52,793 nt of DNA, taken from Ignavibacteriales bacterium (GTDB lineage: Bacteria; Bacteroidota; Ignavibacteria; Ignavibacteriales; Ignavibacteriaceae). Every line of letters starts with the position of its first letter. Position 1 is the first letter of the stretch. The stretch is from assembly GCA_003141435.1 (NCBI GenBank), contig PLLW01000011.1:72822-125614 (forward strand), written 5' to 3'. This document shows positions 4,379-51,762 of the stretch, piece after piece. Both the position numbers and the translations under genes were made by a program. The notes under the pieces were generated by a model. That model did not search any database. It was not told the origin of the DNA and saw nothing but the letters and a program-made list of their open reading frames with translations.

Positions 4379-5069
4379 ATGGCACATCTCAGAAAACAAG
4401 TTCTCGGTCAGATTCAGGGCGGCATTGCAGACATAAAAATCAAATACAGAAATGGCAAACCTTATGTCGCCAGTAAACCCGGTAAATTCAACACCGGCAA
4501 AGATCCCGTTACACTCTTCAAAAAGAAGCCAGGGAAAGTTTATTGGCAAACTATCCAGTGTAATCTATAAAATTGAAATCCTTAAGAAAATTTGGTCCCT
4601 CATCGATGCACCCAAAGGATATACCTACCAGCAAATTTGGGCAAGGAATTACCGCTCTATTAAGAACAACGATCTTTCCGGAATTGTTACCCTCATCCCC
4701 TCTTCTGGATTTAAGACTATCAACCAAACAATCGAATTGGGAGAAAATGAAAAAGGCATTTTAACTGCCTCTCCCCTTGGCGATAAAATTGGAATAAATT
4801 TGTCTATAGAAAAAAAGATGATAGCAACAGGTGTGGTCATACTAAAAAATAATATGTACGGCTCTGAAACAGATTTTGGTTTCCTGGCTATCAGCTCTAA
4901 ACCGGTTGATTTCAATTTAACCGATTCTATAAATATAAATTTCGATACACTCCCCGTTACTCCTTCGGTAATAAGTTATTTTTCAATAAGAAAATCCTAT
5001 ATCACACTCATAACCTTAGACGAATCCGGCTCCCCCATCCACTATTCCGAAGTAATCACCGGTGGCTAA
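4379..5069 (+). pseudogene. Conserved protein (possibly DUF6266-like), frameshifted copy 1
   Basis: The gene starts at ATG 4379 with an AGGAG ribosome binding site. It reads MAHLRKQVLG... through PVTLFKK and then shifts frame near 4525. The remaining ~180 residues (SQGKFIGKLSS... to VITGG) lie in the +1 frame and end at 5069. Compared with the second copy at 6344-6940, this copy has one extra G inside an A-rich run (five A, G, two A, instead of seven A). The repaired product would be about 229 residues, soluble and beta-rich at the C-terminus. Its N-terminal Gly/Lys pattern and size resemble the DUF6266 family of Bacteroidota, but I am not sure of that match and no function is known. A sequencing error or +1 ribosomal frameshifting could also explain the break. 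Confidence 0.6.
4472..4660 (+). repeat. Direct repeat, left copy (189 bp)
   Basis: This stretch is identical to 6344-6531 except for the single extra G near 4525. After 4660 the two genes diverge quickly, though their proteins stay clearly homologous. The two copies have the same orientation and their starts are 1,872 bp apart, enclosing the toxin-antitoxin pair and the methyltransferase remnant. Confidence 0.9.
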
Positions 5070-5754: not shown

Positions 5755-6343
5755 CTACTTCCCAATCACCCCTTTAACAATCTTATCAATCTCCCCTAGT
5801 TCCTTAACAAGATGTTTCTTCAGCGAAGTCCTCATCCTTCCAAGATGAATTGCCGAAAGCTCTTGTTTGGGAGGATTATCCTTTATAAAACCACTCGCCT
5901 TTTCATGTGCCGACTTACTTAGCTCTGCTAACTTTACATGCACAGGATCATTTCCATCAAACTTGGGATAATAGATATCAAGAATCTTCTTTGAAACATC
6001 CCTGGCTCCGAATAAACCTCTTGATTGAAATTCTTTCATACTTTCATTTGGAATAGAAGAATTTAGAATTGCTGATAAATAATAAGCTTCTTGAATATTC
6101 TGAAAGTGCAATACATAAGTCTTATAATCAGCAAAGAATTCCAATCCTATCTCATTTCTTTTAACTACAACTGAGTTTGCATCTTTACCAGATGAATTAT
6201 ATAAAACTAAATATGGAGCATTAAGATTCTGTGTCGTTAATTTAGTTTGCCAATTAAGATAATCTTTAGCAGTAATATTCTTATTCTTCTCCGTCCTGTG
6301 TATTCCCCAGATATTTTCAACATTACCGAACCATTTGGATGCA
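5755..6343 (-). pseudogene. C-terminal remnant of a class I (Eco57I/type IIG-like) DNA methyltransferase
   Basis: About 195 residues remain of what is normally a protein of 500-1,200 residues. The visible part has the C-terminal hallmarks of Eco57I-like adenine methyltransferases: AYYLSAILNS followed by FQSRGLFGARDVSKKILDI and YPKFDGNDPVHVKLAELS. The catalytic NPPY motif and SAM-binding region are absent because the reading frame runs into the second repeat copy at 6343/6344. In-frame sequence beyond the junction is only the reverse of the repeat gene. It can no longer methylate DNA. It looks like the trace of a lost restriction-modification gene brought in together with the toxin-antitoxin pair. 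Confidence 0.75.
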
Positions 6344-6531
6344 AGTAAACCCGGTAAATTCAACACCGGCAAAGATCCCGTTACACTCTTCAAAAAAAGC
6401 CAGGGAAAGTTTATTGGCAAACTATCCAGTGTAATCTATAAAATTGAAATCCTTAAGAAAATTTGGTCCCTCATCGATGCACCCAAAGGATATACCTACC
6501 AGCAAATTTGGGCAAGGAATTACCGCTCTAT
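6344..6531 (+). repeat. Direct repeat, right copy (188 bp)
   Basis: This is the right-hand partner of 4472-4660. The junction with the methyltransferase remnant is sharp at 6343/6344. The copy lacks the extra G that disrupts copy 1 (seven consecutive A at 6392-6398). Confidence 0.9.
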
Positions 6532-6940
6532 AAAAAACACCGATCTTTCCGGAATTGTTACCCTCGTCCCCTCCGTTGGATTTAAGATAATTAACTCTAC
6601 CATTGAATTAGGAGAGAATGATAAAGGTAAATTAACCCTCCCTCCCCTTGGGGTAAAAATTGGATTAAATCCTGCCATTGAAAAAAAGATAATCGCCACA
6701 GGAATTGTTATACTCAAAAATGATAACCCCGGCTCTACTTACGAATTCGGTTTCATGGCTATCAATTCTACACCGGTTGATCTCGATTTAACTTCACTCG
6801 TAGAAATAAATATTGAAGCTAAACCCCTTACCAAATGGTACATACTCGATTTCTCCATAAAAAAGATATATATCACCTTAATTACCATAGACGAATCCGG
6901 TTCCCCAATTCACAATTCGGAGGTAATGTCCGGCGAATGA
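6344..6940 (+). pseudogene. Conserved protein (possibly DUF6266-like), 5'-truncated copy 2
   Basis: About 198 residues are open, SKPGKFNTGKDPVTLFKK... to EVMSGE, but the first 31 residues present in copy 1 (MAHLRKQVLG... to KPYVA) are missing and no ribosome binding site or ATG replaces them. An in-frame TTG at 6335 could start translation, but it falls in the methyltransferase remnant and is probably fortuitous. Outside the 188-bp repeat the protein differs from copy 1 at many positions while keeping the strand pattern, for example ELGEND and PIHNSEV near the end. Copy 1 keeps its start but is frameshifted, and copy 2 keeps its frame but lost its start, so neither copy alone encodes the full protein. 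Confidence 0.65.
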
Positions 6941-29153: not shown

Positions 29154-30597
29154 ATGTTCCTAAATAAAAAACTTTTTCAGGGTTAAGAGACTTGATACTA
29201 TTCTTGCAGAAGAGCGGGATTCTAAAGATAAACTAAAGCGTGTATTGGGAGCATTCGATGTTGTAATGCTCGGAATTGGGGCAATTATCGGAGCAGGCAT
29301 ATTTGCCACTATAGGAACTGCCGTTGCTGGTGATCTGATGCGTCCGGGAGCAGACCCTTCCCTCATTGTTTCTTTTGTAATAACTGGAATAGCATGCGGA
29401 TTTACAGCATTATGCTACGCTGAATTTGCTTCAATAGTCCCTTAATCGGACAGCGCATATACTTATTCCTATGCAACACTTGGAGAAGTAGTCGCCTGGA
29501 TAATTGGATGGGATCTAATTATTGAATACGCAGTTGGAACTGTAATTGCAGCAATAAGTTGGGCAAATTATCTCAAAACATTTATATCAGGTTTCGGCAT
29601 TATTATCCCTGATTGGATATCTACTGATTTTAGAACTGCAGTAAAATTCCCGGGTTAATTGATAGTGCTCCTCACATATTTGGCATAATTGCAGCCATTA
29701 CAGTAATATTAGTGATTGGTATTAAGGAAAGTGCCCGAACTAATACAATAATGGTTCTAATCAAGCTTGTAGTACTATCAATATTCATATTTGTGGGATT
29801 TCATTATGTTAAACCTGCCAATTGGACTCCTTTCGCTCCTAATGGTTGGGCAGGTATACAAGCGGGAGCAGCTATTGTTTTCTTTGCTTATATAGGATTT
29901 GATTCAGTCTCTACGGTGGCAGAGGATGTAAAAAATCCAAAATGGGATCTCCCTATCGGGATTATAGGTTCATTAATAATCTGTACTATCTTCTATATTA
30001 TAGTAGCTGCAGTATTTACGGGAATCATTCCTTATAGCGCCCTGGTAAAGACTTTATCTACTTCACAGGCAGAAATTAACGCTGGGTATTCAATATGCCA
30101 ATATCAAAACCTGGGGGAATTTCTTTGTGGGGGTATTCGGTTCTGTTATAGCACATACTGCAGTACTGCTTGTATTCCAGATGGGACAGCCAAGGATTTT
30201 CTTTTCAATGTCCAGAGACGGCCTATTACCTAAAAGCTTTTCCAAAGTTCATCCAAAATACAGGACACCATATATAACAACTATTTTAACCGGAGCAGTA
30301 GTTGGTATAACCTCAATGTTTACAAGTATAGATGAAATGGTCGATCTTACAAACATAGGTACCTTGTTTGCTTTCATTTTAGTGTGCATTGGTATATTGA
30401 TACTGAGGAAAAAAGACCCGTTAAGGGAAAGAAGCTTCAGAATCCCCTTAGTCCCTATATTGGGAATTGTGTCATGTCTCTATCTTATGCTTGGACTGCC
30501 ATGGATAAGATTTGCCAGGTAGCTAATGATAGGATTATTTATTTATATCTTTTACGGAAGAAACCGTAGCAGGTTAAATTCAATAAATGGGATTTAA
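29154..30597 (+). pseudogene. APC amino acid permease pseudogene (multiple lesions)
   Basis: The remains of a cationic-amino-acid-type permease can be followed across three frames. It starts at ATG 29154 (MFLNKKLF), shifts at the T run 29173-29177 to RVKRLDTILAEE..., and continues through GAFDVVMLGIGAIIGAGIF. It meets TAA at 29443 just before SDSAYTYSYATLGE, loses frame again near 29640-29656 before GLIDSAPHIFGII, shifts near 30070-30076 (after LSTSQAE, before LTLGIQYA), then meets TAG at 30520 where Trp is expected, and fades out by 30597. Five separate lesions rule out a simple sequencing error. The intact protein would have been roughly 480 residues. Confidence 0.9.
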
Positions 30598-34070: not shown

Positions 34071-35969
34071 TTAAACATTAGTTTTATCATAATCTACATA
34101 ATAGGTACGTGATTCACCTGATTTAAGATCATTAATAAAAAGTTTAACCGTCTTGCTTCCTTTTTGATGTTCAAAACTTGCAGTTACAGTAGAAATTATT
34201 TCTGAACTTAGCGAAATATTATCTGCCTTTTCATTCAGATCGATCTGAATAACAGACTGATTGACTATTTCATTCCCAGGATTCGAAACTGTAAGCGAAA
34301 CTCTTGACTCACCTCTTTTATCAACCCTCACTTCTATATAATCCCTTTTAGAGAACCATTTCCGTATCTCCGAAGCTGTGGTAATCCAGAAATTCTTTTT
34401 CTTCAAATCTTCGATTATTTGCTTTACAACAATTATATTTTCAGGTTTGCATTGATATTCAGGGTGTATTTTCATTATATACATACCCCCCTCAAAAAGA
34501 ACTCTGTCAACATCTTCCTGGTATGTATAGAACTGAAATTCAGGCTGAATAAGACCGAAATCCCTTATAACTTCATAATCATCGCGCGCAGTCGTAGTCA
34601 TTGATAATAACCTATTTTTGCCACGGATTATAATTTTTGGAACTGATCTGTCTGTTAATGAATCAGACATTACGTACTTATAACCTGAATTAATTAAGGC
34701 AAGTTCAGTATTGTGATCAAATAAACCATAATACGGATAACAGCCGGATACTTCAGAACCGAAAATTGACTCAAGGGTTTTCTTTGCACCTTTCAGTTTC
34801 GCAAACTGAGTATTGTAATCGTTGAGATGATTTATTGTATCGTTGGCAAAAATTAGATACCCTATGTCGACCAAAGAAGCAATTTCGCCATAGTTAGAAA
34901 GACCCTGGATAAGACCTTTATTCTGTTCTGCCTTATCTGGATCAACAAAGAAAGTTCCCTTTACTCCCTCAGAATCAAGGATATTTAAAAGATTCCTGAT
35001 ATCATAAGTATCCTCTGAAATAACGGGAGAAATTACAGCAGCGGCAGCATAACCATCAGGCCATTCTTTTATATATGCAACAGGACCATTGTTTAACCAA
35101 TTTATACTATTTCTGAACAGTCTGTCAAAATATATATAATCATCCTGCACTCCGATAACTGAATTTATTTCAAAACCCATCCAGACAAATTTTCCCGTGC
35201 CATAAGTACCATAAACGATACCGGCACTCTTTTTAATTTCTTCACGTTCCAATCCATCTTCAAGTCTGTAGTTATACCAGAAGCTGACCTGGGTAGTTCT
35301 GGGATCCAATACTTCAACTGATATAGGGTGATCCCATGTTGCCACTTTCAAAGGATAACCTGTTGGAATATTTGATGTTATCGCTAATTCACCCCGCAAA
35401 GTATGCATCTTAGTATTTTCATCTGAGGCAATTTCCTTTGTGAATTTTAATCCGAATACTTCTGAAAGGAATTCCCATCCTCGCCATTTCCCATCCTGTG
35501 AATAAGATGCTATGCCACTTGTTGCAAAAACAGAGCCGCCATTATTAATATATTTTTTAATCTGCGAAATCTCTAAATCACTTAATGACCTTGATCCAGG
35601 AAGAACGAGGATTTTATAATCAAAGAGCTTACCTTTTTCAATTGATTCATCGGAAATAATATCGAATTTTAATTTAGAAGTTCCGAAGAATTTTTCCCAG
35701 GTACTTAAATTATCATTCTGCCAGGAACTTCCGTTCGGCAGCATATTCTCAGTATATCTGGAATTAAGAATAGCTATTTGAGAACCGCTACCGTTAAAAA
35801 TGGTTCGTATTACTTTTGAATCTGGAAGCAGAGATACGGGATTGAATTTTCCTAATACACCGTAAAGAATAAAGAGGTAAGTAATTACCGAACCTGCCAG
35901 AATTAATAAACCTACAAAAATAAGAAGGGCTTGATTTACTCTGCCTCGTTTGTAAGTTATTATTTCCAC
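34071..35969 (-). CDS. Membrane-anchored GATase-like plus NodB-fold protein (degenerate deacetylase)
   Basis: The 632-residue protein has one N-terminal membrane helix (about 13-37) and an outside part of three regions. Residues ~58-300 look like a class-I glutamine-amidotransferase/ThuA-type fold (FDYKILVLPGSRSLS, YINNGGSVFATSG). Residues ~303-530 follow the NodB fold (YAAAAVISP, GVKGTFFVDP, YPYYGLFDHNTELALINSGYKYVMSD, MKIHPEY). Residues ~540-632 form a beta-sandwich. The catalytic DD pair of NodB is replaced (SPVISED) and the HxxxH pair is absent, so deacetylation is unlikely; glycan binding is more plausible. Its start overlaps the preceding small gene by 10 bp and it is the last gene before the terminator. 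Confidence 0.7.
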   Translation of the reverse strand: MEIITYKRGRVNQALLIFVGLLILAGSVITYLFILYGVLGKFNPVSLLPDSKVIRTIFNGSGSQIAILNSRYTENMLPNGSSWQNDNLSTWEKFFGTSKLKFDIISDESIEKGKLFDYKILVLPGSRSLSDLEISQIKKYINNGGSVFATSGIASYSQDGKWRGWEFLSEVFGLKFTKEIASDENTKMHTLRGELAITSNIPTGYPLKVATWDHPISVEVLDPRTTQVSFWYNYRLEDGLEREEIKKSAGIVYGTYGTGKFVWMGFEINSVIGVQDDYIYFDRLFRNSINWLNNGPVAYIKEWPDGYAAAAVISPVISEDTYDIRNLLNILDSEGVKGTFFVDPDKAEQNKGLIQGLSNYGEIASLVDIGYLIFANDTINHLNDYNTQFAKLKGAKKTLESIFGSEVSGCYPYYGLFDHNTELALINSGYKYVMSDSLTDRSVPKIIIRGKNRLLSMTTTARDDYEVIRDFGLIQPEFQFYTYQEDVDRVLFEGGMYIMKIHPEYQCKPENIIVVKQIIEDLKKKNFWITTASEIRKWFSKRDYIEVRVDKRGESRVSLTVSNPGNEIVNQSVIQIDLNEKADNISLSSEIISTVTASFEHQKGSKTVKLFINDLKSGESRTYYVDYDKTNV

Positions 35970-36351: not shown

Positions 36352-37758
36352 TTATGCTTTTGCAGTTCCAACTCGTTCTAATTTACCCCAGGACATTTTT
36401 ATTCCAAGGAATTCTTCAGCAGTAGACATTGCTTTACATATATCAATTACAAGAATAAAGAACATTCTGTAAATGATTGCATACCAAACAAGTCTAAATT
36501 CTTCTTTCTCTACTGTCACACAATACAATGCAGTAATTAAGTCAAGCAGAGCCAGACCAGCCCACCAGAAAAGTATAAGGGAAGTAAAACCGAATACTAT
36601 TGCTGCGATCATGAAAAATAGATTGGCCGCTATATTCATAGTCGGCCATATTAGAGCTTCATAGAACATTGTCCACAGAATAAAAGTATCGCCAAAGTTA
36701 ATAGTCGGATTCAGCAATAACTTTTTATGTTTTCTGATAGACTGTAGAATTCCTCTTGTCCAGCGGTATCTTTGTTTCATTAACTGTTGTAGCTTTACTG
36801 GGGCCTCAGTAAAGGAAACAGAATTCGGTTCATAGTAAATCTTCCATCCGCTTGCTAATATATTCAGAGTAAGATCAGCGTCTTCAGCAAAGGTATCGCT
36901 TGAATAATATCCTGCTCCTTCGATAGCTTTCTTCCTGAATAGTCCAATAGGGCCGGGAATAATATTTACCAAACTAATAAAACTTTGGGCACTGCGCGCC
37001 ATGTTCAACCCTTCAATATATTCAAGCGCCTGAAGATCAGTAAAGAATTTTCCTCTGTTTAAGACTTTTACATTTCCTGCAACAGCACCGATCTCCGGAT
37101 CAACAAAATGCCTTACGGCCAGTTTTAAGGAATCAGGAGTGAGTTGAGAATCACCATCCATACACAACACAAATTCTGCTTTAGAAAACAAAATCCCGGC
37201 ATTTAATGCTTTGGATTTTCCACCATTTGGTTTATCTATCAGGGAAATTTTAATATCTGAATATCTGCCTTTCTGATAACCGACCAACTGTTCGGCAACT
37301 CCCTTTGTCTTATCAGTAGATCCGTCATTGACTATAATAATTTCGTAATTTGAATAATTCAGATCAAGCAGGGATTTGACCGAATCCGCAACAATTTTTT
37401 CTTCGTTATAAACGGGCACAATAATTGAAACAAAAGGAAAGAATTCTTTTGTGGGTTTAAATGTATACTGGTTTAGATATAGGTAAGCCAATATCAGAAT
37501 TCCGAAATATCTAATAAGAAGTACAAACAAAAATATTACCAACGCATCAACGAGAGCATATTCAATAAGTGAATCATATGAAAGTACAGTTAAGGGCAAA
37601 GTATAAATAATAATAAAAACAAGAATCAGAGATAATAACCCGCTTATTAGTATTTGTCTGAGGAGCTTACCTTTCTTATTTCCATCCCGAGAATGTGCTT
37701 CCCGGTCTTTGAGGATCAAGGTATCTCTAATAATTTGCTGATTTAGCTTCATATCCAT
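36352..37758 (-). CDS. Processive GT2 glycan synthase (PgaC/BcsA-like)
   Basis: The 468-residue membrane glycosyltransferase has two N-terminal helices (about 34-56 and 68-95). A GT-A domain follows with VNDGST (D145), DGD (201-203), AEDAD (E292, D293) and QRYRW (329-333), and three or four helices close the protein. The ED and QxxRW motifs mark processive beta-glycan synthases (cellulose, poly-GlcNAc, hyaluronan) that both polymerise and translocate the chain. Size and plan are closest to PgaC/IcaA; there is no PilZ domain, so c-di-GMP would not act on this chain directly. The sugar is not determinable from sequence alone. A promoter-like element lies 23 bp upstream of the start. Confidence 0.85.
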   Translation of the reverse strand: MDMKLNQQIIRDTLILKDREAHSRDGNKKGKLLRQILISGLLSLILVFIIIYTLPLTVLSYDSLIEYALVDALVIFLFVLLIRYFGILILAYLYLNQYTFKPTKEFFPFVSIIVPVYNEEKIVADSVKSLLDLNYSNYEIIIVNDGSTDKTKGVAEQLVGYQKGRYSDIKISLIDKPNGGKSKALNAGILFSKAEFVLCMDGDSQLTPDSLKLAVRHFVDPEIGAVAGNVKVLNRGKFFTDLQALEYIEGLNMARSAQSFISLVNIIPGPIGLFRKKAIEGAGYYSSDTFAEDADLTLNILASGWKIYYEPNSVSFTEAPVKLQQLMKQRYRWTRGILQSIRKHKKLLLNPTINFGDTFILWTMFYEALIWPTMNIAANLFFMIAAIVFGFTSLILFWWAGLALLDLITALYCVTVEKEEFRLVWYAIIYRMFFILVIDICKAMSTAEEFLGIKMSWGKLERVGTAKA

Positions 37759-38046: not shown

Positions 38047-39258
38047 TTATTTAACATTTAATATAGCCTCTGTTAACAAATCTGCCAATATTTTTCCGCC
38101 TGCATCTGAGAAATGAGAATAATCTTTAAGAGCCAAGTTCTGGTTTACCCATTCATTCATAGAGTTTACCCCCCCCATGGCTTCCATACTGTTCCAAAAA
38201 GCAATACCTGTTTGCTGAGCAATTAATTTTTGTTCATTTAACACTATGAAAATCGAGGGGTCAGTGACAAATTTCGTTCCTTTTTTAATCGCTTTATCAC
38301 CCACTCCAATCATAAGGATAGCAGCATCGGGAAAAATCTGCTTAAGATTGTTAATAACTTTAATCATTTTATTCCTGTACCAAGTATAATTTGTCTGTTC
38401 GGGGGAGGCAATATTCACGCCATAATTCAAAATGATAAGTTTATAATTAAGCAATTTCTGGAAATCAGAAAGAATGTTTCTTGGGATATCATCAATGGAA
38501 ACTCCTGAGTTTCCTCTGATAGGGAAATTATCGACATACACGCCGTTACCATTTTCAAGGCTTACACCATAGAAGTTTACATCGCTGCTGCATGAAGTAA
38601 AATTGAATTTGACAGATGTTATATCACCTGGAGAATTTATGACCGATTCCTTTACATTCATACCCGACTGTAAATTAAGATTCTGCGCTGCGCCATTATT
38701 CAGGGAATATGAAACACGACAACTATATTTTGCATTATTATAAAATAATCGGATTGTTTTGAATGACTTACATGAACTCCTGAAGTTAGTAGCTTCATAT
38801 TTCACCCAGCTATTGCCTTTAGATTTTGCAACCGTACCTGCAATTCCCAAAGAATAATTTTTTAAATTACGCGTAAACAAAGACGCCCAGTCCCATTCTG
38901 CTTCATCAAAAGTCTCCTTTGTGGTCTGTTTGACAACAATGTCGTCAGTAACTAATGACATGAACCCCGCGCCCTGTCCTCCGAATTTACTCTGAAAATT
39001 CTGTCTTAAATCTTGAGTGATAATATCTCCCCAATTTATTGAATCTCCGTAATGTGCAATTCTGATCTTTATAATTTTAGCTTGATTAAGAGAATTCAAG
39101 AACTTCTTCATCTGACTAGTATTGCCAGTAATAGGTACCTTTTTCCCTAGAGATGGAGTAGTATTAACTTCTGCAAAAGTGCCGGGATAAGAAATAAACG
39201 TAAATGATATAAGTATTACTATAAGTATTGTTGTTAATGACTTTCTAACCATAAGCAA
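38047..39258 (-). CDS. Exported SGNH hydrolase of the MBOAT-partner type
   Basis: The 403-residue protein has a signal peptide or anchor (residues 8-24). It carries the SGNH blocks: GDS with catalytic S73 in IAHYGDSINWGDIITQDLR, a Gly-containing block in FGGQGAGF, Asn in NYGVN, and D379/H382 in KDYSHFSDAGG near the end. The GDS...D.IT..LR...Q..FGG.GAGF pattern resembles periplasmic SGNH proteins that work with MBOAT acyltransferases in Bacteroidota. Such enzymes transfer or remove acyl groups on glycans; direction and acyl group are unknown. It follows the TPR/barrel gene by 47 bp, and an MBOAT gene lies about 10 kb upstream. Confidence 0.78.
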   Translation of the reverse strand: MLMVRKSLTTILIVILISFTFISYPGTFAEVNTTPSLGKKVPITGNTSQMKKFLNSLNQAKIIKIRIAHYGDSINWGDIITQDLRQNFQSKFGGQGAGFMSLVTDDIVVKQTTKETFDEAEWDWASLFTRNLKNYSLGIAGTVAKSKGNSWVKYEATNFRSSCKSFKTIRLFYNNAKYSCRVSYSLNNGAAQNLNLQSGMNVKESVINSPGDITSVKFNFTSCSSDVNFYGVSLENGNGVYVDNFPIRGNSGVSIDDIPRNILSDFQKLLNYKLIILNYGVNIASPEQTNYTWYRNKMIKVINNLKQIFPDAAILMIGVGDKAIKKGTKFVTDPSIFIVLNEQKLIAQQTGIAFWNSMEAMGGVNSMNEWVNQNLALKDYSHFSDAGGKILADLLTEAILNVK

Positions 39259-39305: not shown

Positions 39306-42215
39306 TTAAAATATACTAAGGTAACAGGTTAAATAGCCAGCCCAATAATTGTATCCTGTACCGAACCGGGTAGAACCGGAGTTTGAAATCCTTCCAGAGA
39401 TGGTAAATATCTGAGCTGGGTGGTATACCGCTTCCCCATAAATTTCTCTTAAAATATAATCATAAGAAGGGATATAACCAACTTTACCACCGAGATTCAA
39501 AGAAATTTCAGAGTCTTTATATACAGTCCAATCTGTCCAGAGACTGTGAGACTGGAAGTTATGTGGTGAATAATAGAGCGCAGAAATTCTTGAATAGTTT
39601 GTATAATCATATTCATATCCTAAATGAATATAATCATTCAAAGACTTATTAGTTCTTATTCTGAAGTCTTGACCTGCATTATTATCTGGTTTAATATCTA
39701 TATAGTTATAATAGGCGTATAATGAGACTGTAGGAGCGAGAAAATAATTCCCTGTAAACCTTATTATGCCCGCACTCATATTATTTATATCAAGTAAAGA
39801 TGGCGAATATAAAATTACCCTGGCATCATTCTTTTCATAAGAAAGACCTAATCCAAAATCATTTTTCTTTTCATAACGCGCGATAATTTGCAATACGTTA
39901 TTCTGAGAAGATGATATTGATTTTGTCTGACCTAATCCTGCCGAAGCAAAGAAATTATCAACGCTAAAGGTAACATGCCCCAAGAAGGAAGTTAAGTACT
40001 TTTGGTCCACAAGATAATTAAAATTATATCTTGAGTATGTGACACCAACAGATAAATATCTTGCAATCCCGGTTTCAATGCTACTTCCATAGTTAAATAA
40101 TGATAAGTTCTGATTGTCAGAATAAAAGGCGAAAAATGGAGCCAGTGCAAAGTACCCGAACAAATAAGTACCATACTGACTCCCCGCTTGCAGATAATCT
40201 AATCTTTTATGAAAACCATCAAGTTGACTGGAATCAAATCTTGCCTCATTATTACCGTTGGCAGCGATTAATGATTTATAAAGATTTATCGCGTCATCAT
40301 TTCTCTTCATCCTTTCATATAATTCGCCGAGATAATAATTTACAGGAAAATCATACGGGCGCTGAATTTTCATATTTGCAAATTCTTCCAGTGCTTTAGA
40401 TGTATCACCTGCATCAAAATAATCTATCGCCCTGAAGAAAATTATATTAGAATCAGGACCCATTTCAAGAACTTTACCATAGATTTTTTCTGCCATATCA
40501 TATCTTTTGGCAGCAGTATTATATGAAGCATATTCAAGAAGTATATTCTTTTCAGGATTATCAATCTTGGCTACTAATTCAGTATATTTATCAGCGGCGG
40601 CATCAAATTTACCCGAATCATAAAGCTTACCAGCTTCAACGCGCATGACCAAGATCCCCCTCTCCTTTTCTACCAAGGCTCTTGTATTTATCTGATTCTG
40701 AATGGATTCCACCTCTTTACTTTCAGGGTCTATTATTTTAGCCATATCTAAATACTTTTGAGCTTCAGTTATATGTCCCACACCCGCATAAAGAAAAGAT
40801 ATACTAAAAAGAGCATCTAAATTTTTAGGATCATCTTTCAGAATATCCAAAAGAATTCCTTTTGCTCTTTCAATTTCGACAGGGGTAACGTTAAGGACAT
40901 TCCATGCCACTAACCTGGCACTGAATAATTTATAGTCTTTATTAGCGGGAGCATATTTCATTAATATAGCCATTTGGTTGAAGGCATTGTCCCATTTATA
41001 ACTCCAAGCTGAATATTTAGTGAGCATAAAACGAACGTCGAGATCTTCATTCTCTTTTACTGTTGCTAAATATTTTTCAAGTATATCGACTGCGTTATCA
41101 TAATCATAAAGATGTGCATAGTTGTCGGACAATTTTACAGCTGCATCTTTGTTATTATTATTGTTTTCAAATTCTTCGGTATAGATTTTTATATTGTCCT
41201 GATAGCTACTATCCTGCATAGAGGAGACAAAATCCAATTTATCTTTAAAGCGTTCGGTACCGGCAATTTTTTCATCAGACTGCATAATCATAAGCTGTTC
41301 ATTTGCTTCTTCGAACCTTTTATGCTTTATCAAAGAATCAATAAGAGTAAATCTTAGTTCATTATCCTCTGAATTTTTTTTAAGCATCTTGAAATATTTA
41401 TCGATAGCATATTCCTTGGTTTTTATACCACGAATGGTTTTACCATATCTATAAGAAGTATCATTAAAAGTAAAGATATAACCATTCCCTTTTGCCTGGT
41501 CAAGCCCACTCATAGCTTCTTTAAAATACGGCTTTATGGCTAGCGCTTTTTCAAAAGCATTGATAGCATTCTTTCTCTTTCCAAGCCACATTTCAAAATA
41601 GCCATATCTGGACCAGAGCCTTTGGTCCGCGGGGAATTTTTCTGTATATCTTTTTAATATCGGTTCACCTTTTTGTACATGATTATTCTTGGCAAGAATT
41701 TCTGTATATCGGATTATTTCATCGGGAGAGGCTTCCTCCATTTTAAGGTATTTATCATACCATTCTTCTGCGATCAGCCAATCGCCAAGATTTTTATAGC
41801 ACATTCCGATTTCAAGATAGTTTACCGGTTTATGAGGATATATAGCAATTTCTCTTTTATGTCCCTCTATATTGTTATATAAAAGCTTATACCAGGCATC
41901 GGTGGTTTCTGCAAGATTTTTGTTTATTTCAGCATTAACAGGCTGGAGTTTACGGGCTGATCGGAAATCGTATACAGCCATTTCATACTGTCCCCTTTTT
42001 AGATAGCATACTCCACGGAGGTTATAACCTTCTGCCTTTTGCGGGCAAGCAGATACATAACGATTCAAAAGATCTATTGCTTCGCCATATCTGCCAACAA
42101 GCATTTGCTTTTTAGCTTCGTTCTTTAAGGCGTCGTTTTGAGCCTGACTAAATATTGCGGGGATAATGAGAAAAGTAAGCAGTATTATTAAAGCAAATAT
42201 GTTTTTCACTGTCAT
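39306..42215 (-). CDS. TPR protein with C-terminal outer-membrane beta-barrel (PgaA/BcsC-like exporter)
   Basis: The 969-residue protein has a signal peptide (about 1-25). A long array of TPR-type helical repeats follows (about 27-670), clearest at AKKQMLVGRYGEAIDLLNRYV and CYLKRGQYEMAVYDF. A C-terminal region of about 280 residues (690-969) is rich in alternating aromatic/polar strands (SLSVGVTYSRYNFNY-like, ending in YWAGYLTCYLSIF) and looks like a 14-16-stranded barrel. This is the plan of PgaA, BcsC and AlgK/E-type polysaccharide exporters: the TPR part guides the glycan in the periplasm and the barrel lets it out. It lies 11 bp after the KaiC-like ATPase gene, so the two are co-transcribed. 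Confidence 0.82.
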   Translation of the reverse strand: MTVKNIFALIILLTFLIIPAIFSQAQNDALKNEAKKQMLVGRYGEAIDLLNRYVSACPQKAEGYNLRGVCYLKRGQYEMAVYDFRSARKLQPVNAEINKNLAETTDAWYKLLYNNIEGHKREIAIYPHKPVNYLEIGMCYKNLGDWLIAEEWYDKYLKMEEASPDEIIRYTEILAKNNHVQKGEPILKRYTEKFPADQRLWSRYGYFEMWLGKRKNAINAFEKALAIKPYFKEAMSGLDQAKGNGYIFTFNDTSYRYGKTIRGIKTKEYAIDKYFKMLKKNSEDNELRFTLIDSLIKHKRFEEANEQLMIMQSDEKIAGTERFKDKLDFVSSMQDSSYQDNIKIYTEEFENNNNNKDAAVKLSDNYAHLYDYDNAVDILEKYLATVKENEDLDVRFMLTKYSAWSYKWDNAFNQMAILMKYAPANKDYKLFSARLVAWNVLNVTPVEIERAKGILLDILKDDPKNLDALFSISFLYAGVGHITEAQKYLDMAKIIDPESKEVESIQNQINTRALVEKERGILVMRVEAGKLYDSGKFDAAADKYTELVAKIDNPEKNILLEYASYNTAAKRYDMAEKIYGKVLEMGPDSNIIFFRAIDYFDAGDTSKALEEFANMKIQRPYDFPVNYYLGELYERMKRNDDAINLYKSLIAANGNNEARFDSSQLDGFHKRLDYLQAGSQYGTYLFGYFALAPFFAFYSDNQNLSLFNYGSSIETGIARYLSVGVTYSRYNFNYLVDQKYLTSFLGHVTFSVDNFFASAGLGQTKSISSSQNNVLQIIARYEKKNDFGLGLSYEKNDARVILYSPSLLDINNMSAGIIRFTGNYFLAPTVSLYAYYNYIDIKPDNNAGQDFRIRTNKSLNDYIHLGYEYDYTNYSRISALYYSPHNFQSHSLWTDWTVYKDSEISLNLGGKVGYIPSYDYILREIYGEAVYHPAQIFTISGRISNSGSTRFGTGYNYWAGYLTCYLSIF

Positions 42216-42226
42216 AACTTTACCAG

Positions 42227-43492
42227 TTATAGACCAAATTTGTTTTTGTCCTGCGACTCGATACCGACTAACACATCAAGAAGCTCATTAGCATTATGTA
42301 CATTCTCATCCACCCTAATTGCATAGACGCTAATGAAGGGAATGACAGATTTAATAAAGTCGGGATCATTACGGGGGAGATTAGCTTTTATTTTTGCAAT
42401 AAGACCTTTGATACCCTTCTGATCTACTTCCCGCGTAATTAGAACAACCACATTATTTAAAATAATACAAATTTTATCTTTTCTATCCGTCGAAAGCCGG
42501 ACGGCATTCTGAAGCTGACTGATAGTGATTAAGCCTTTTCGCTCAACTTCCATATCAAGCCGGAAGGATAACATGGTAAATATTTGTCCTGTGCTTTTAT
42601 AAAGAGCAATCTGGTTATTCAGGAGAAGATTAAAGTCATTGACATTATAATAATTAGAATGAGTAACTTGCTCTTCGTTAGTATCGATATCAATTAAGGA
42701 TCTATACATATGACCTTTAGGTGCAACCATAGAGCCAGGGCCCGGGGCATCTGTAGAGACGAGAACAGGTGAAACGATGGAATGTTTAAAATCTGTTGTA
42801 ATTCCCTTATCTGGTTCGATAATATAATCTGCTGAAAATTCACCCTGTGTATGCCCAATATTAGGAAATATAGTCATTTTACCCCCATGATATTTTTTCT
42901 CAGTCAGAACACCATTCCTGAGATAAATCATTCCTGTACCATAGGCGGTTATTGCATCAATAATTTGTTCAGCAGACTGTGTAGCAGGTTCGCCGAAAAT
43001 AAATAAGCTGGTTATTCCAAAATCTTCGATAGCTTCAATATTTTTTAGGAAAGTCTCCTGTAAAAGGTTAATATTTTGAAATCCGATAAATGGGGTTAAC
43101 TCATCAAATACAATTTTTGACGGCTTGTATTGTTCAACAATCGTAACTATATTATTTAAATATTCGATAAGATACTGATCAGCATTGGGCACATTGGCAA
43201 TATCAGTAGGAGGGACTACACGTACAACAATAATAAGATTCTTATTCATTAGTTCCTGAAGGTCAATATCAATAGAGGCAGCCTGAATAATAAGGTCTTT
43301 GGGACGCTTCGATGTAAAATAAAGACAAAGTTCCTTCTGCCCGGCACTTTCCTTTGCATATTGCAAACTTAGAAGGGTCTTACCTGTTTTATGGGCACCG
43401 ATCACCATGTAAGTCCCACCTCTGTAAAATCCACCCCAAGCGGAATCGACCAATGAAATTCCTGAGGCTAACAATTGTATTTTTTCCATCAT
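42227..43492 (-). CDS. KaiC/RadA-like ATPase with C-terminal GGDEF-fold-like domain
   Basis: The protein of about 421 residues begins with a RecA-fold ATPase of the KaiC type: GISLVDSAWGGFYRGGTYMVIG, Walker A GAHKTGKT (about 32-39) and Walker B KIVFDELTPF (Asp near 130). The C-terminal third (about 290-420: FTMLSFRLDME, TISQLQNAVRLSTDRKDKICIILNN, KIKANL, YAIRVDE) follows the strand/helix order of a GGDEF domain without the GGDEF signature; that assignment is my inference. There is no membrane segment. ATG 43492 or 43489 is more likely than the upstream GTG 43498. As first gene of the unit with the TPR/barrel exporter it may regulate polysaccharide export. Confidence 0.7.
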   Translation of the reverse strand: MMEKIQLLASGISLVDSAWGGFYRGGTYMVIGAHKTGKTLLSLQYAKESAGQKELCLYFTSKRPKDLIIQAASIDIDLQELMNKNLIIVVRVVPPTDIANVPNADQYLIEYLNNIVTIVEQYKPSKIVFDELTPFIGFQNINLLQETFLKNIEAIEDFGITSLFIFGEPATQSAEQIIDAITAYGTGMIYLRNGVLTEKKYHGGKMTIFPNIGHTQGEFSADYIIEPDKGITTDFKHSIVSPVLVSTDAPGPGSMVAPKGHMYRSLIDIDTNEEQVTHSNYYNVNDFNLLLNNQIALYKSTGQIFTMLSFRLDMEVERKGLITISQLQNAVRLSTDRKDKICIILNNVVVLITREVDQKGIKGLIAKIKANLPRNDPDFIKSVIPFISVYAIRVDENVHNANELLDVLVGIESQDKNKFGL

Positions 43493-43498
43493 AATCAC

Positions 43499-47513: not shown

Positions 47514-48212
47514 ATGGTAATCTTAAGAAAAGCCCTCCCTTCAGATACTGATTTTATAGTTGAAGCAATAATTGAATCTGAAAAAAGCGGGACAGATAAA
47601 TTCTCGTACTGTACTCTATTCGGATTGGCAACAGAAGAGGTCAGTGAAATAATAAAAGAGATATTAACTGAAGATATACAAGGGCAGAAGTTTTGTCTTG
47701 AGCAATTTATTATTGCCACAGTTAATGATGAACCGGCAGGAGCCTGCAGTTCCTGGATAGAAGGGGGAACAGGTTCTTCAAGCAGTTATCTTCAGGGGCA
47801 AATTCTGCTTGCATTCTTTCCCCGTGAAAATGTGGCTGATGCCCGTGACCGGCTGGAAATGGCAAAGGATTTAACAATTGAAAGAGAGTATAATGCTCTT
47901 CAGATAGAGTCAGTTTATGTTAAACCCAACTTCAGAGGATTGGGTATAGCAGGAAAAATAATTGTAGAGCATATTCAAAATGCACTGAAGGGAAATCCGG
48001 ATTTGAAAAAAACTCAGATAGTCGTTGCGAAAACAAATGACAGTGCTGTAAAATCTTATACAAAATTGGGATTTGAAGTTGTCGAGGAAAGGCATTGCGG
48101 CAATAAGGATATCCTCAATTTCCTCCCCGCAGACACACTTGTTGTAATGGAAAATATAAAACCGCTGAATGATTATAAGTCAAATAGCTTTTTACAAAGA
48201 AAAGATTTTTAA
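47514..48212 (+). CDS. GNAT-family N-acetyltransferase
   Basis: The 232-residue protein has the acetyl-CoA binding motif in YVKPNFRGLGIAGKI (R/QxxGxG/A loop) with the preceding strand LQIESVYV, and the late strand IVVAKTNDSAVKSYTKLGFEVV typical of GNAT enzymes. AGGAA precedes the ATG. It is the only + strand gene in the right half, lying between the dipeptide epimerase and the adenylation gene and converging with the latter. The substrate is unknown. Confidence 0.85.
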   Translation: MVILRKALPSDTDFIVEAIIESEKSGTDKFSYCTLFGLATEEVSEIIKEILTEDIQGQKFCLEQFIIATVNDEPAGACSSWIEGGTGSSSSYLQGQILLAFFPRENVADARDRLEMAKDLTIEREYNALQIESVYVKPNFRGLGIAGKIIVEHIQNALKGNPDLKKTQIVVAKTNDSAVKSYTKLGFEVVEERHCGNKDILNFLPADTLVVMENIKPLNDYKSNSFLQRKDF

Positions 48213-48248: not shown

Positions 48249-49754
48249 CTAATTCACTACATTTTTTAATAAAGCTTTTCTATCAATTTTACCATTTACA
48301 TTTAAAGGGAATACCGGCAGATTGTGGATAAATGAGGGGATCATATATTTAGGTACTTTGGTTTCCAGATAACTATTTATATCTTCAGTCTTACCTTCAT
48401 AATTCTCAACAAACAGATAAATTTTTACATTTCCTGTTCCAGCACTATCGGAGGCAACTGCAGCAATATTTGAAATCTTAGTAAACTCCCTGGCATGATG
48501 TTCAATTTCACTTAATTCAACTCGGAAACCCTGAATTTTAATCTGATGATCGAGTCTTCCGCCGAACATGAAATCATCATCTTCATCCAGAAAAGCAATG
48601 TCCCCGGTTCTATAATATGTTTTTGCTTCCCCGTTAGATTCAAGAATAAAAAAGGCTTCTTTATCTTTTTCAGGATTCTTCCAGTAGCCCCTCGTCATTT
48701 GAAATCCGGTTAGACAAAGCTCCCCTTTTTGACCTTTAGGAACAGGTTTTAAATTCTCATCAACAATAATGGCGCCCATGTTCATCATCGGTTTGCCAAT
48801 GCAAGTTATTCCATTATAATTTTTATTTTTAAATTGATCTTTCTTAATATCATAAGTCAGACAGAAAATTGTTGCCTCAGTAGGTCCATATACATTCTGA
48901 ACCAGCGCATTGGGAACACATTTTGCCCATTCAAGGACAACATCTTCATACAAGGCCTCCCCACAAAACATACTGTATTTCATCTTTTGAAGATTTATTT
49001 CTTCAAAATAAGGTCGTAAATAAGCTATTATTGAGGGAACCATTAAGGCCACAGTAATCTCCTGCTCTTCAAGTATTGTATATACAGATGCATATTTTAT
49101 TCCACCGGGAGGAACTGTATATACACATGCACCTCTACATAATGGCGCAAGGTAAGACATCAGGGATAGATCGAAAGTCATATCAAACATTTGTAAAACC
49201 TTGTCCTTTTCATTCATCTTGTATCCTAACTGCCAGAATGCATCCATAAATGAAAATAGATTTTCCCTTGATATAGGAACTCCTTTCGGGACCCCCGTAC
49301 TTCCCGAAGTAAAGAGAAGATAAGCTATTTCATTTCCTTCAACACCAGGAAGTGATATATTAGATTTAACTTTTGGGATGTCGGTTGTATTAATGAAGTT
49401 AATCCCCTTCTCTTTGCATAGAGAGATAATTTTTTCATCGTTCTGAGAACTTAGTACAATCTTAATATCTGCCTGGTCAAGGATTGAAGCATTTCTGTCA
49501 ATTGGATTCTCCGGGCTGATAGGGACAAATCCACATTTAGTAAATAAAATGGACAATGCGGACGCATAAGTTTCAAAGTCATCATAAGTAAGAAACCCAA
49601 TGAGCCGGTCTGATGAAGAGGAATTTTGTTCAATCTGAAATCTTATTTTAGAAATCGCACTTTCAAGATCTTTATATGTATAGAATTTTTCTTGAATAAA
49701 AAATGAATTCCGTTCCGGAAATATTTCCATCGTTTTTTTTATTTGATCAAGCAT
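48249..49754 (-). CDS. DltA-like AMP-forming amino acid adenylation enzyme
   Basis: The 501-residue enzyme of the adenylate-forming superfamily has the length of DltA (about 500). Motifs are FTSGSTGVPKG (ATP loop), YGPTEATIF, YRTGDIAF, GRLDHQIKIQGFRVE and NGKIDRKAL with the catalytic Lys near the end. The PTEATIFCLTYDI and KIQGFRVELSEIEH stretches are as in D-alanine:carrier-protein ligases and NRPS domains. It would activate an amino or other carboxylic acid and load it on the carrier protein encoded two genes upstream. The amino acid is not predictable here without a pocket analysis. It is the last gene of the four-gene Dlt-like unit, 15 bp after the MBOAT gene. Confidence 0.82.
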   Translation of the reverse strand: MLDQIKKTMEIFPERNSFFIQEKFYTYKDLESAISKIRFQIEQNSSSSDRLIGFLTYDDFETYASALSILFTKCGFVPISPENPIDRNASILDQADIKIVLSSQNDEKIISLCKEKGINFINTTDIPKVKSNISLPGVEGNEIAYLLFTSGSTGVPKGVPISRENLFSFMDAFWQLGYKMNEKDKVLQMFDMTFDLSLMSYLAPLCRGACVYTVPPGGIKYASVYTILEEQEITVALMVPSIIAYLRPYFEEINLQKMKYSMFCGEALYEDVVLEWAKCVPNALVQNVYGPTEATIFCLTYDIKKDQFKNKNYNGITCIGKPMMNMGAIIVDENLKPVPKGQKGELCLTGFQMTRGYWKNPEKDKEAFFILESNGEAKTYYRTGDIAFLDEDDDFMFGGRLDHQIKIQGFRVELSEIEHHAREFTKISNIAAVASDSAGTGNVKIYLFVENYEGKTEDINSYLETKVPKYMIPSFIHNLPVFPLNVNGKIDRKALLKNVVN

Positions 49755-49769
49755 TATACTATCCGATAA

Positions 49770-51269
49770 TTAAAATTGGAAATATAGGAACGGCTGTAAA
49801 TCGGCAAACCGGAATTGTATTACTAACCAAATAACAAAAGCAAGCATTACAGCTTTCCCGATCAGAGGGGTTTTCACAATTAATTCCTGAGTTTTCACTT
49901 TCCAATTCTCCGGGATAAAATGGACGAGATAACCCAAAACAATTAATCCGAATATCAGTTTATAGCCAAGAACAAATTGCATAAATACTTCAGCATGGAA
50001 GAATGTAAATATTTGTTTAATTACATAAAAGGCCATGGTCATGTTTGATGCTCTGAAAAAAATAGTCGTAAAAACAACTAAATTGAAAGTAAAGAACCAT
50101 TGCAGAAATTTTACGATACGTGAGTTGGTAAGACCGGTTTTTTTATAAAAATTCTGTCTAAGCTTTTTTGTGAAGATAGATGTGGCTAAATAAGTTCCAT
50201 GAATTGCTCCAAAGACAATAAATGTCCAGTTAGCCCCATGCCATATTCCTATGACCAGGAATGTAATAAAAAGAGCCAGGGCATTCCCGAAGATATTCAT
50301 TCCACGAAATTTCATCTGTAGTGGTTTAAAGATGTAATCGAGGCACCAGGAGGAAAGTGTTATATGCCATCTTCTCCAGAAGTCGGCAATAGATAAAGCT
50401 TTAAAGGGAGCATTAAAATTATCGGTTAATCTATATCCCAAAAATAAGCTGACACCCAAAGCCATATCAGTATATCCGGAGAAATCGGTATAGAGTTGAA
50501 GTGCATAAGCATAAGCTGCCATAAGATTTTCAACGCCAGTAAAACGAAGCGGGCTATCGAATACCCTATCAACAAAATTTATCCCTATATAATCGGCAAT
50601 AACAACTTTTTTAAGTAAGCCCGACATTATGAGGAAAAGAGCCGTTCCAATCATTTCTTTACTAATTGGGTTATCTGCTTCAACCTGGGGAAGAAAATTT
50701 GAAGCTCTCTCAATAGGGCCCATTTGCAGTGTAGGGAAATAAAATATAAAAAATGTAAAATCTCTTATGCTATTAACGGGTTCTATATTTTCGAGATAAA
50801 TTTCAATAACATAGCTCAATGCTTTAAAAATAATAAAGGAAATACCTAATGGCAGGAAGATATCTAATGGTGCAATCTGAGAACCCCGAACGACGTTTAT
50901 TATCTGGATAAAGAAATTTGTATACTTAAAATATATTAGGAGACCAATATTCAGAAGAAGGGATAGAAGAAAGAGAGCAAGCCTAACTTTCCTGCTCTGC
51001 GCTCCGCCGATCCATTTGCCCATGAAATAATTAACAAATGATATTACAAATAGAAAGAGAAAATAAATTCCCGATGCTTTATAATAAAAGAAAATGGAAA
51101 AGCTAATTAGTAAATATATTCTAGCTGGTTTGCTTTTATATAATACTCTGTATAAAAAAAGAAGGGCAAAGAATGCGAATAAGAACATGCTTGAAGTAAA
51201 GACAAGGGGATCAGTCTTATCATAAACTAAAAGGAGTTTTATTTTATTCAGATCAAAATACTGGAACAT
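49770..51269 (-). CDS. DltB/AlgI-like MBOAT acyltransferase
   Basis: The 499-residue polytopic protein with about 11-12 helices carries the MBOAT signature. Conserved segments are LPLGISFIIFKALSYVIEIY, FPTLQMGPIERASNFLPQ, DFWRRWHITLSSWCLDYIFKP and GIWHGANWTFIVFGAIHG, the last with the catalytic His of GIWHG. Length and motif spacing are those of the AlgI/DltB/PatA group that passes acyl groups across the inner membrane to a periplasmic glycan or SGNH partner. The adjoining carrier protein and adenylation enzyme point to a DltB-type use of a carrier-bound acyl or aminoacyl donor. Confidence 0.88.
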   Translation of the reverse strand: MFQYFDLNKIKLLLVYDKTDPLVFTSSMFLFAFFALLFLYRVLYKSKPARIYLLISFSIFFYYKASGIYFLFLFVISFVNYFMGKWIGGAQSRKVRLALFLLSLLLNIGLLIYFKYTNFFIQIINVVRGSQIAPLDIFLPLGISFIIFKALSYVIEIYLENIEPVNSIRDFTFFIFYFPTLQMGPIERASNFLPQVEADNPISKEMIGTALFLIMSGLLKKVVIADYIGINFVDRVFDSPLRFTGVENLMAAYAYALQLYTDFSGYTDMALGVSLFLGYRLTDNFNAPFKALSIADFWRRWHITLSSWCLDYIFKPLQMKFRGMNIFGNALALFITFLVIGIWHGANWTFIVFGAIHGTYLATSIFTKKLRQNFYKKTGLTNSRIVKFLQWFFTFNLVVFTTIFFRASNMTMAFYVIKQIFTFFHAEVFMQFVLGYKLIFGLIVLGYLVHFIPENWKVKTQELIVKTPLIGKAVMLAFVIWLVIQFRFADLQPFLYFQF

Positions 51270-51304
51270 ATTTTTTATAGATTATTATTAAAAATATAAG
51301 GGAA

Positions 51305-51550
51305 TTAGCCAGCAGAAACTGTAGTTAATTTTTTATCTATCAGCCGTTGAAGTTCGCCTATATTCTTAATTTTCAGAATCTCTATGCCCTTAAATTTTAT
51401 TTTATAATTTTTTTCTATAGCGACTATTATCTGAATATGTGAAAGTGAATCCCAGCCAGGCACCATATCAGCAGTAGTTTCGTCTTGCAAATCAAGATCA
51501 ACCAAAGCAAGTTCTTGCAGTACAATCTCTTTTAATCTTTCTGAAATCAT
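51305..51550 (-). CDS. Acyl/peptidyl carrier protein (DltC-like role)
   Basis: The 81-residue carrier protein has the phosphopantetheine attachment Ser35 in PGWDSLSHIQIIVAIEK, preceded by helix 1 and an acidic loop as expected. A strong ribosome binding site (AAGGAG, six bases before ATG) supports the start. It would be charged by the adenylation enzyme and used by the MBOAT protein encoded next to it. By sequence alone it could equally be a generic ACP. Confidence 0.85.
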   Translation of the reverse strand: MISERLKEIVLQELALVDLDLQDETTADMVPGWDSLSHIQIIVAIEKNYKIKFKGIEILKIKNIGELQRLIDKKLTTVSAG

Positions 51551-51573
51551 TTATTACTCCTTAATTTTTTTAT

Positions 51574-51762
51574 TTAATTAGATAAGATTGATGGATCAGA
51601 ATAATTAGACAAAGAATCCTGTTTAATATCCATAAAAAGATCTACCGGTTTAATAGATATCCCCAGAATTTTTGTTTTGGGAGGGAAATAAGAAATAAGG
51701 ATCAATAATAAAATAGTTAAACCAATTAATAAAACTGGAATATTTTTTATGTTTTTAAGCAA
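51574..51762 (-). CDS. Small membrane protein at the head of the Dlt-like unit
   Basis: The 62-residue protein has one hydrophobic helix (about 9-27, PVLLIGLTILLLILISYF) and a short tail KTKILGISIKPVDLFMDI. Position and size recall DltX, the small membrane peptide found with dlt genes, but the sequence does not let me claim homology. The tail looks like the stretch just after the anchor of larger SGNH-type proteins, so a truncated gene is an alternative. The stop is 23 bp before the carrier protein start. Confidence 0.6.
   Translation of the reverse strand: MLKNIKNIPVLLIGLTILLLILISYFPPKTKILGISIKPVDLFMDIKQDSLSNYSDPSILSN

Follow-up and report, generated by a model that had tools for sequence, protein, structure and literature searches.

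We analyzed a 52,793-nucleotide stretch of an Ignavibacteriales genome (the window) and found that four genes at 48249-51762 form a unit that, judged by sequence, is Dlt-like but is not a dlt operon. We consider it reasonably probable that this locus, with a secreted SGNH protein encoded at 38047-39258 (SGNH38), specifies an MBOAT-SGNH pathway in which a small neutral amino acid is attached by ester linkage to an exported polysaccharide. The original prediction for this DNA was partly supported. Its Dlt-like logic, its absence of DltD, its choice of SGNH38 as partner, and its choice of the GT2-cluster glycan as target stood; its comparisons with DltX and DltA and its charged amino acid did not.

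All four open reading frames (ORFs) were confirmed, and the predicted combination of adenylation enzyme, carrier, and MBOAT in one unit held. All four genes are encoded on the minus strand, in the order small membrane protein, carrier, MBOAT, and adenylation enzyme, and are separated by 23, 35, and 15 bases. The small membrane protein (51574-51762) has 62 amino acids and a TTG start. The acyl or aminoacyl carrier protein (51305-51550; 81 amino acids) matched PF00550 (PP-binding) above its cutoff, the MBOAT acyltransferase (49770-51269; 499 amino acids) matched PF03062 with 80 bits, and the stand-alone amino acid adenylation domain (48249-49754; 501 amino acids), the proposed carrier loader, matched PF00501 (AMP-binding) with 186 bits. 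We examined the neighborhood of the MBOAT gene in 80 named loci and in 80 genomes from the family to which the window belongs. The relatives are mostly metagenome-assembled genomes that are related and partly incomplete, and genome counts are not independent. About 40 family genomes keep the carrier and MBOAT pair, and the small ORF appears to be under selection (see below). Thus, the unit is not a product of chance. Scans for promoters and terminators gave matches no more frequent than in shuffled sequences.

The gene content resembles dltXABC, and the DltA and DltB models align to the window proteins over nearly their whole length, which would suit a genuine dlt operon from a Gram-positive donor. 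However, the MBOAT scored 198 bits against DltB (TIGR04091; cutoff, 375), and the adenylation enzyme, although the best DltA match in the genome, scored 273 bits against TIGR01734 (cutoff, 560), about half of the equivalog cutoff in each case. By this measure, the DltA-sized enzyme is not a DltA equivalog. Against the amino acid adenylation domain model (TIGR01733), it scored 300 bits (cutoff, 317). As predicted, we found no DltD (PF04914) in the whole genome, which is 93% complete; the control search detected DltD in Bacillus subtilis and Lactococcus lactis. There is also no DltX motif, the shuttle is fused to the MBOAT, and the nearest relatives all belong to Bacteroidota or Ignavibacteria. 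Membership tests for DltA, DltB, DltX, and DltD refuted a true dlt operon, and we regard a donated one as extremely improbable. Because the DltA and DltB scores lie so far under the equivalog cutoffs, we call the unit Dlt-like and not Dlt.

The MBOAT is DltB-like across residues 29 to 406. His344 (WHG), His302, Tyr496, and Phe499 are invariant in 23 homologues, and His344 occupies the place of the catalytic histidine of MBOAT-SGNH polymer acylation systems. The protein ends in FLYFQF (49773-49790, minus strand; Tyr496 codon, 49782-49784), a Tyr-bearing hexapeptide that matches the FXYXXF shuttle of DltX and of PatA-type MBOATs (PMC12148441). Nearly all relatives have [FI]-Y-F-x-F at the MBOAT end. 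In the structural model (pLDDT, 90), extra helices at 437-450 and 469-486 follow the DltB-like part, with a flexible tail. For PatA, an acyl-Tyr intermediate has been demonstrated, and one is also reported for DltX (PMC12148441). The carrier has its attachment residue at Ser35 (GWDSL), and carriers adjoining related MBOATs are 51 to 79% identical to it. According to the published picture, carrier-fed systems (Dlt) have a separate DltX, coenzyme A-fed ones (Pat and others) have an MBOAT-fused shuttle, and pathways other than Dlt have no carrier (PMC12148441). The MBOAT described here, apparently fed by a carrier and equipped with its own shuttle, would depart from this dichotomy.

The small membrane protein had been likened to DltX. 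We rejected this assignment because the FXYXXF shuttle motif is missing from the 62-residue protein, whose C terminus reads ..SDPSILSN, and found that the protein is homologous to an SGNH anchor instead. Hydropathy indicates one transmembrane helix (residues 8 to 26), with a short tail (..ISIKPVDLFMDIKQDS..) on the outside. The protein is 60% identical to residues 14 to 73 of a 501-residue SGNH protein of a relative (G017; E value, 5e-18). In most relatives, an SGNH protein with an intact anchor is encoded directly upstream of the carrier and MBOAT; operons of the family typically begin with the SGNH protein (450 to 505 amino acids, membrane anchor), often continue with a fatty-acyl-AMP ligase (FAAL; 565 to 575 amino acids), and end with carrier and MBOAT. 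MBOATs of this type in other Bacteroidota adjoin SGNH proteins without a carrier. On the strength of this homology, we conclude that the 62-residue protein is the detached N-terminal membrane anchor of an MBOAT-partner SGNH protein.

The homology is limited to the first part of the larger protein, as it would be if an SGNH gene had been truncated and the ORF were its decaying, functionless remnant. However, comparison of the window with a genome of the same genus (G025) gave a ratio of nonsynonymous to synonymous changes (pN/pS) of 0.25 for the anchor, like that of neighboring genes (0.23 for the MBOAT), whereas the two other frames of the region gave 1.5. The mismatches fall mostly at third codon positions (12, 7, and 26 at positions 1, 2, and 3). 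The anchor also stands alone in two genera: in the window and G025, and in G027, G028, and G030 of another genus. A remnant is thus very unlikely, and by these substitution patterns the anchor is a kept microprotein under purifying selection. All six anchor-only operons or genomes have a separate SGNH38-type gene, which adjoins the GT2 synthase gene in five of the six versus 6 of about 32 others (P = 3e-4); these counts were made by hand, the SGNH38-type gene of G027 lies at a contig end, and the contig of G026 ends before the anchor position, so that we assumed it to be anchor-only on the basis of its genus.

SGNH38 had been proposed as the missing partner that performs the last step. Its gene (minus strand) lies between those for a TPR protein with a barrel-like C-terminal part and a GT2 polysaccharide synthase, and its product has a signal peptide and no anchor like that of the relatives' operon SGNH proteins. 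The model (pLDDT, 90.7) shows an SGNH fold with an inserted CBM-like domain. Ser73, Asn282, Asp379, and His382 are invariant, and we also identified Gly249 of block II. Fold, motifs, and co-occurrence agree with an SGNH partner of the Ser/Asp/His-triad type. Among GT2 carriers, 41 genomes have both an SGNH38 homologue and the MBOAT, 2 have only the SGNH protein, 1 has only the MBOAT, and 22 have neither (P = 3e-14; at the genus level, 17/1/0/7, P = 2e-5). The homologue is thus present in 41 of 42 MBOAT genomes, whereas 22 of the 24 GT2 carriers without an MBOAT do not have it. The gene between the TPR-barrel and GT2 genes is also missing where the MBOAT is missing (G005, G042, G055, G060, and G078), and homologues lie directly beside the carrier and MBOAT in relatives. 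No other SGNH family (DltD or PF13472) was detected in the genome in searches whose controls gave signals. We found no ALGX family match in the genome, in a search in which no control gave a signal, and no small single-domain SGNH protein of the type seen in g8 operons, in a search without a control. SGNH38 is therefore the best candidate for the MBOAT partner, as the co-occurrence and gene order suggest.

The glycan made by the GT2 cluster had been named as the possible target. We found a GT2 synthase orthologue (at least 65% identity) in 42 of 42 MBOAT genomes of the family versus 24 of 36 MBOAT-free ones (P = 3e-5; at the genus level, P = 0.02), and the case proposed as a refutation, a module without any GT2 cluster, was not seen. 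The two operons lie within about 20 kb of each other in several genera, and SGNH and MBOAT genes are directly beside the TPR-barrel gene in G046, G048, and G050. These patterns make the GT2-cluster glycan the likely target. In the window, the cluster (minus strand) comprises the synthase (36352-37758; PgaC/IcaA-like; TIGR03937, 194 bits against a cutoff of 422), the TPR protein (39306-42215; PgaA/BcsC-like; TPR families and a weak TIGR03939 PgaA match), which is the proposed exporter, and a polysaccharide deacetylase-like protein (34071-35969; PF01522) that is conserved next to GT2. The GT2 polysaccharide operon consistently includes a KaiC-like ATPase gene throughout the family (42227-43498, minus strand, in the window).

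The adenylation pocket code is DLMLMCVIFK, which has no charged side-chain selector, so the charged amino acid that had been proposed is not indicated. Asp195 and Lys489 are the equivalents of Asp235 and Lys517, as in amino acid adenylation domains. Because the alpha-amino-binding Asp is kept and the pocket is neutral, we favor an amino acid over the fatty acid that would have spoken against the prediction, and the code suggests a small neutral one. Single-domain scores place the enzyme at about the same distance from the structures of LgrA, tyrocidine/gramicidin synthetase, and DltA. A 42%-identical enzyme occurs in an operon of A-domain, GNAT, carrier, and MBOAT in a Saprospiraceae metagenome-assembled genome, and in a capsule locus of Segatella copri, genes for a carrier and an alanine racemase accompany a 37%-identical A-domain.

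We found that the loader varies among close relatives. The MBOAT tree pairs the window with G025 as sisters and places G063 and genus g7 in the same clade with moderate support (90/92). Within this clade, the loader is an A-domain in the window, FkbH with a MaoC-like protein in G025, FkbH with a glyoxalase-like protein in G063, and FAAL in g7. Across the family, the A-domain family was associated with carrier and MBOAT operons that lack FAAL (17/1/4/18, P = 1e-6; at the genus level, 5/0/2/9, P = 0.005). We found no description of operons that combine FkbH or FAAL with an MBOAT in the open-access papers searched.

A GNAT-family acyltransferase gene (47514-48212, plus strand; PF00583) lies beside the unit. 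Its relatives are convergent with the MBOAT gene at 2 to 15 bases, or overlap it by 3, in G011, G058, G059, and G071, and one lies inside the Saprospiraceae operon. We found a GNAT of this type near none of the FAAL operons examined. The GNAT is probably accessory, and perhaps it N-acylates the aminoacyl carrier. Elsewhere in the family, a GNAT separates two SGNH-carrier-MBOAT units arranged in tandem in G059 and G058 (loci L046 and L047), and a GNAT-GNAT-carrier-FkbH-GNAT-GNAT-A-domain cluster lies directly beside the GT2 locus in G065 (L286, 3518-9848). Tandem A-domain pairs with pocket types DLMLLCVIFK and DFVCLCAVFK occur with GNATs in L034, L047, and L132 to L140, where they adjoin a second carrier, an SDR, an acyl-AMP ligase, LuxE, and LuxC and would form part of a carrier-bound acyl/aldehyde pathway.

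Several observations weigh against the proposed pathway. The genome-level P values overstate independence because the counts come from related and partly incomplete genomes, and several tables were compiled manually from the search results. The pocket names no single amino acid. Genes of the A-domain family are in most cases found at a distance from the MBOAT gene, as tandem pairs accompanied by GNATs and a second carrier, so the A-domain could be the partner of another pathway. In that case, the adenylation enzyme and GNAT would serve, for example, cytoplasmic amino-sugar aminoacylation for O antigen or capsule and would lie beside the MBOAT by accident, and the carrier and MBOAT would use a different acyl group. 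The SDR, LuxE, and LuxC genes beside the relatives' pairs fit this explanation, as do the A-domain and carrier of Segatella and G186, whose surface-polysaccharide loci contain an N-acetyltransferase-like gene but no MBOAT that we could see. In contrast, the A-domain gene of the window starts 15 bases past the MBOAT stop on the same strand, the genome has no further A-domain of that family, the Saprospiraceae operon joins the same four functions, and the A-domain is complementary to FAAL operons across the family. We therefore consider an accidental neighbor unlikely.

The remaining points against the pathway concern SGNH38. Its partnership with the MBOAT was supported, and it may either add or remove groups. 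The nearest structure to SGNH38 is an esterase, Ape1 (4k3u; TM-score, 0.72/0.82; profile E value, 1e-37), which shares the SGNH fold with a CBM35-like insert; among solved structures, those of the Neisseria and Campylobacter Ape1 proteins come closest. PatB and OatA replaced the block II Gly, a criterion published for these two proteins only (PMC12148441), and SGNH38 keeps Gly249 and so lacks this transferase feature. SGNH38 may thus remove groups rather than add them, as an Ape1-like esterase that trims the modification, with transfer by an unrecognized protein or directly on a lipid-linked acceptor; Ape1 itself coexists with a separate transferase in the PatA/PatB/Ape1 operon (PMC12148441). 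However, no other SGNH protein was detected that could take the transferase role, SGNH38 is lost together with the MBOAT, and in genera without FAAL the sole SGNH protein of the carrier and MBOAT operon is of the SGNH38 type, membrane-anchored, and beside the MBOAT. We retain the esterase as a minority possibility because of the block II Gly.

Gene order, motifs, the homology and selection of the anchor, co-occurrence, and the exchange of loaders were all observed, and from them we infer a pathway whose chemistry, amino acid, and glycan target would be as follows. The adenylation enzyme would activate an alpha-amino acid with ATP and load it onto the phosphopantetheine of the carrier, where the GNAT may N-acylate it. 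The MBOAT would then move the group from the carrier onto Tyr496 of its own FLYFQF, outside the inner membrane, and the motif would pass it to Ser73 of SGNH38. The anchor microprotein, which in most relatives is fused to the SGNH domain, would recruit SGNH38 to the MBOAT. SGNH38 would finally transfer the group to the GT2-made glycan on its way to the TPR-barrel exporter.

This arrangement shares features with four known systems. Like Dlt (DltXABCD, teichoic acid D-alanylation), it has a stand-alone adenylation enzyme, a carrier, a DltB-like MBOAT, and a transmembrane microprotein in one unit, as well as an acyl-Tyr shuttle motif. Unlike Dlt, it has no DltD, no teichoic acid is expected, the adenylation enzyme is no DltA equivalog, and the microprotein derives from an SGNH anchor and leaves the shuttle to the MBOAT. 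It shares with PatA/PatB (with Ape1; Gram-negative peptidoglycan O-acetylation) an MBOAT with a fused C-terminal FXYXXF and an SGNH partner tethered through one N-terminal helix. In contrast, PatA uses acetyl-coenzyme A and no carrier, whereas here there are a carrier and a loader, SGNH38 is closer to Ape1 than to PatB, and anchor and catalytic part are separate genes. Alginate O-acetylation (AlgI/AlgJ/AlgX/AlgF) likewise combines an MBOAT, a membrane-held SGNH protein, and a polymer-side SGNH protein with a synthase-made exopolysaccharide, and both SGNH types occur in relatives of the window, but the Alg system has neither carrier nor adenylation enzyme. Surface-glycan systems with a free-standing A-domain and carrier, such as the S. 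copri capsule locus, have a related A-domain (37% identical) next to a carrier, together with an N-acetyltransferase-like gene and an alanine racemase; they differ in that no MBOAT was seen in the stretch and the acceptor is probably a cytoplasmic amino sugar.

Elsewhere in the window, two near-duplicate ORFs of about 200 amino acids (4452-5069 and 6335-6940, plus strand), almost identical in their N-terminal halves, flank an opposite-strand ORF. An amino acid permease-like sequence at 29712-30522 (plus strand) is spread over two overlapping frames (173 and 131 amino acids), suggesting an assembly or gene frameshift.

More tentatively, the locus may represent modular, carrier-fed glycan acylation. 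Interchangeable loaders (A-domain, FkbH, or FAAL) would then serve one and the same set of carrier, MBOAT, and exopolysaccharide locus, close relatives would decorate one polymer differently, and a DltX-like scaffold microprotein would have split off an SGNH transferase anchor. The combination of a carrier with a fused shuttle in this module and its relatives would separate two features that are paired in the published picture (PMC12148441). With loaders exchanged inside a clade, the replacement of a single gene would be enough for a lineage to give its matrix polymer a different chemistry. A selected microprotein cut off from an SGNH anchor would offer a testable route for the origin of DltX-type scaffolds.

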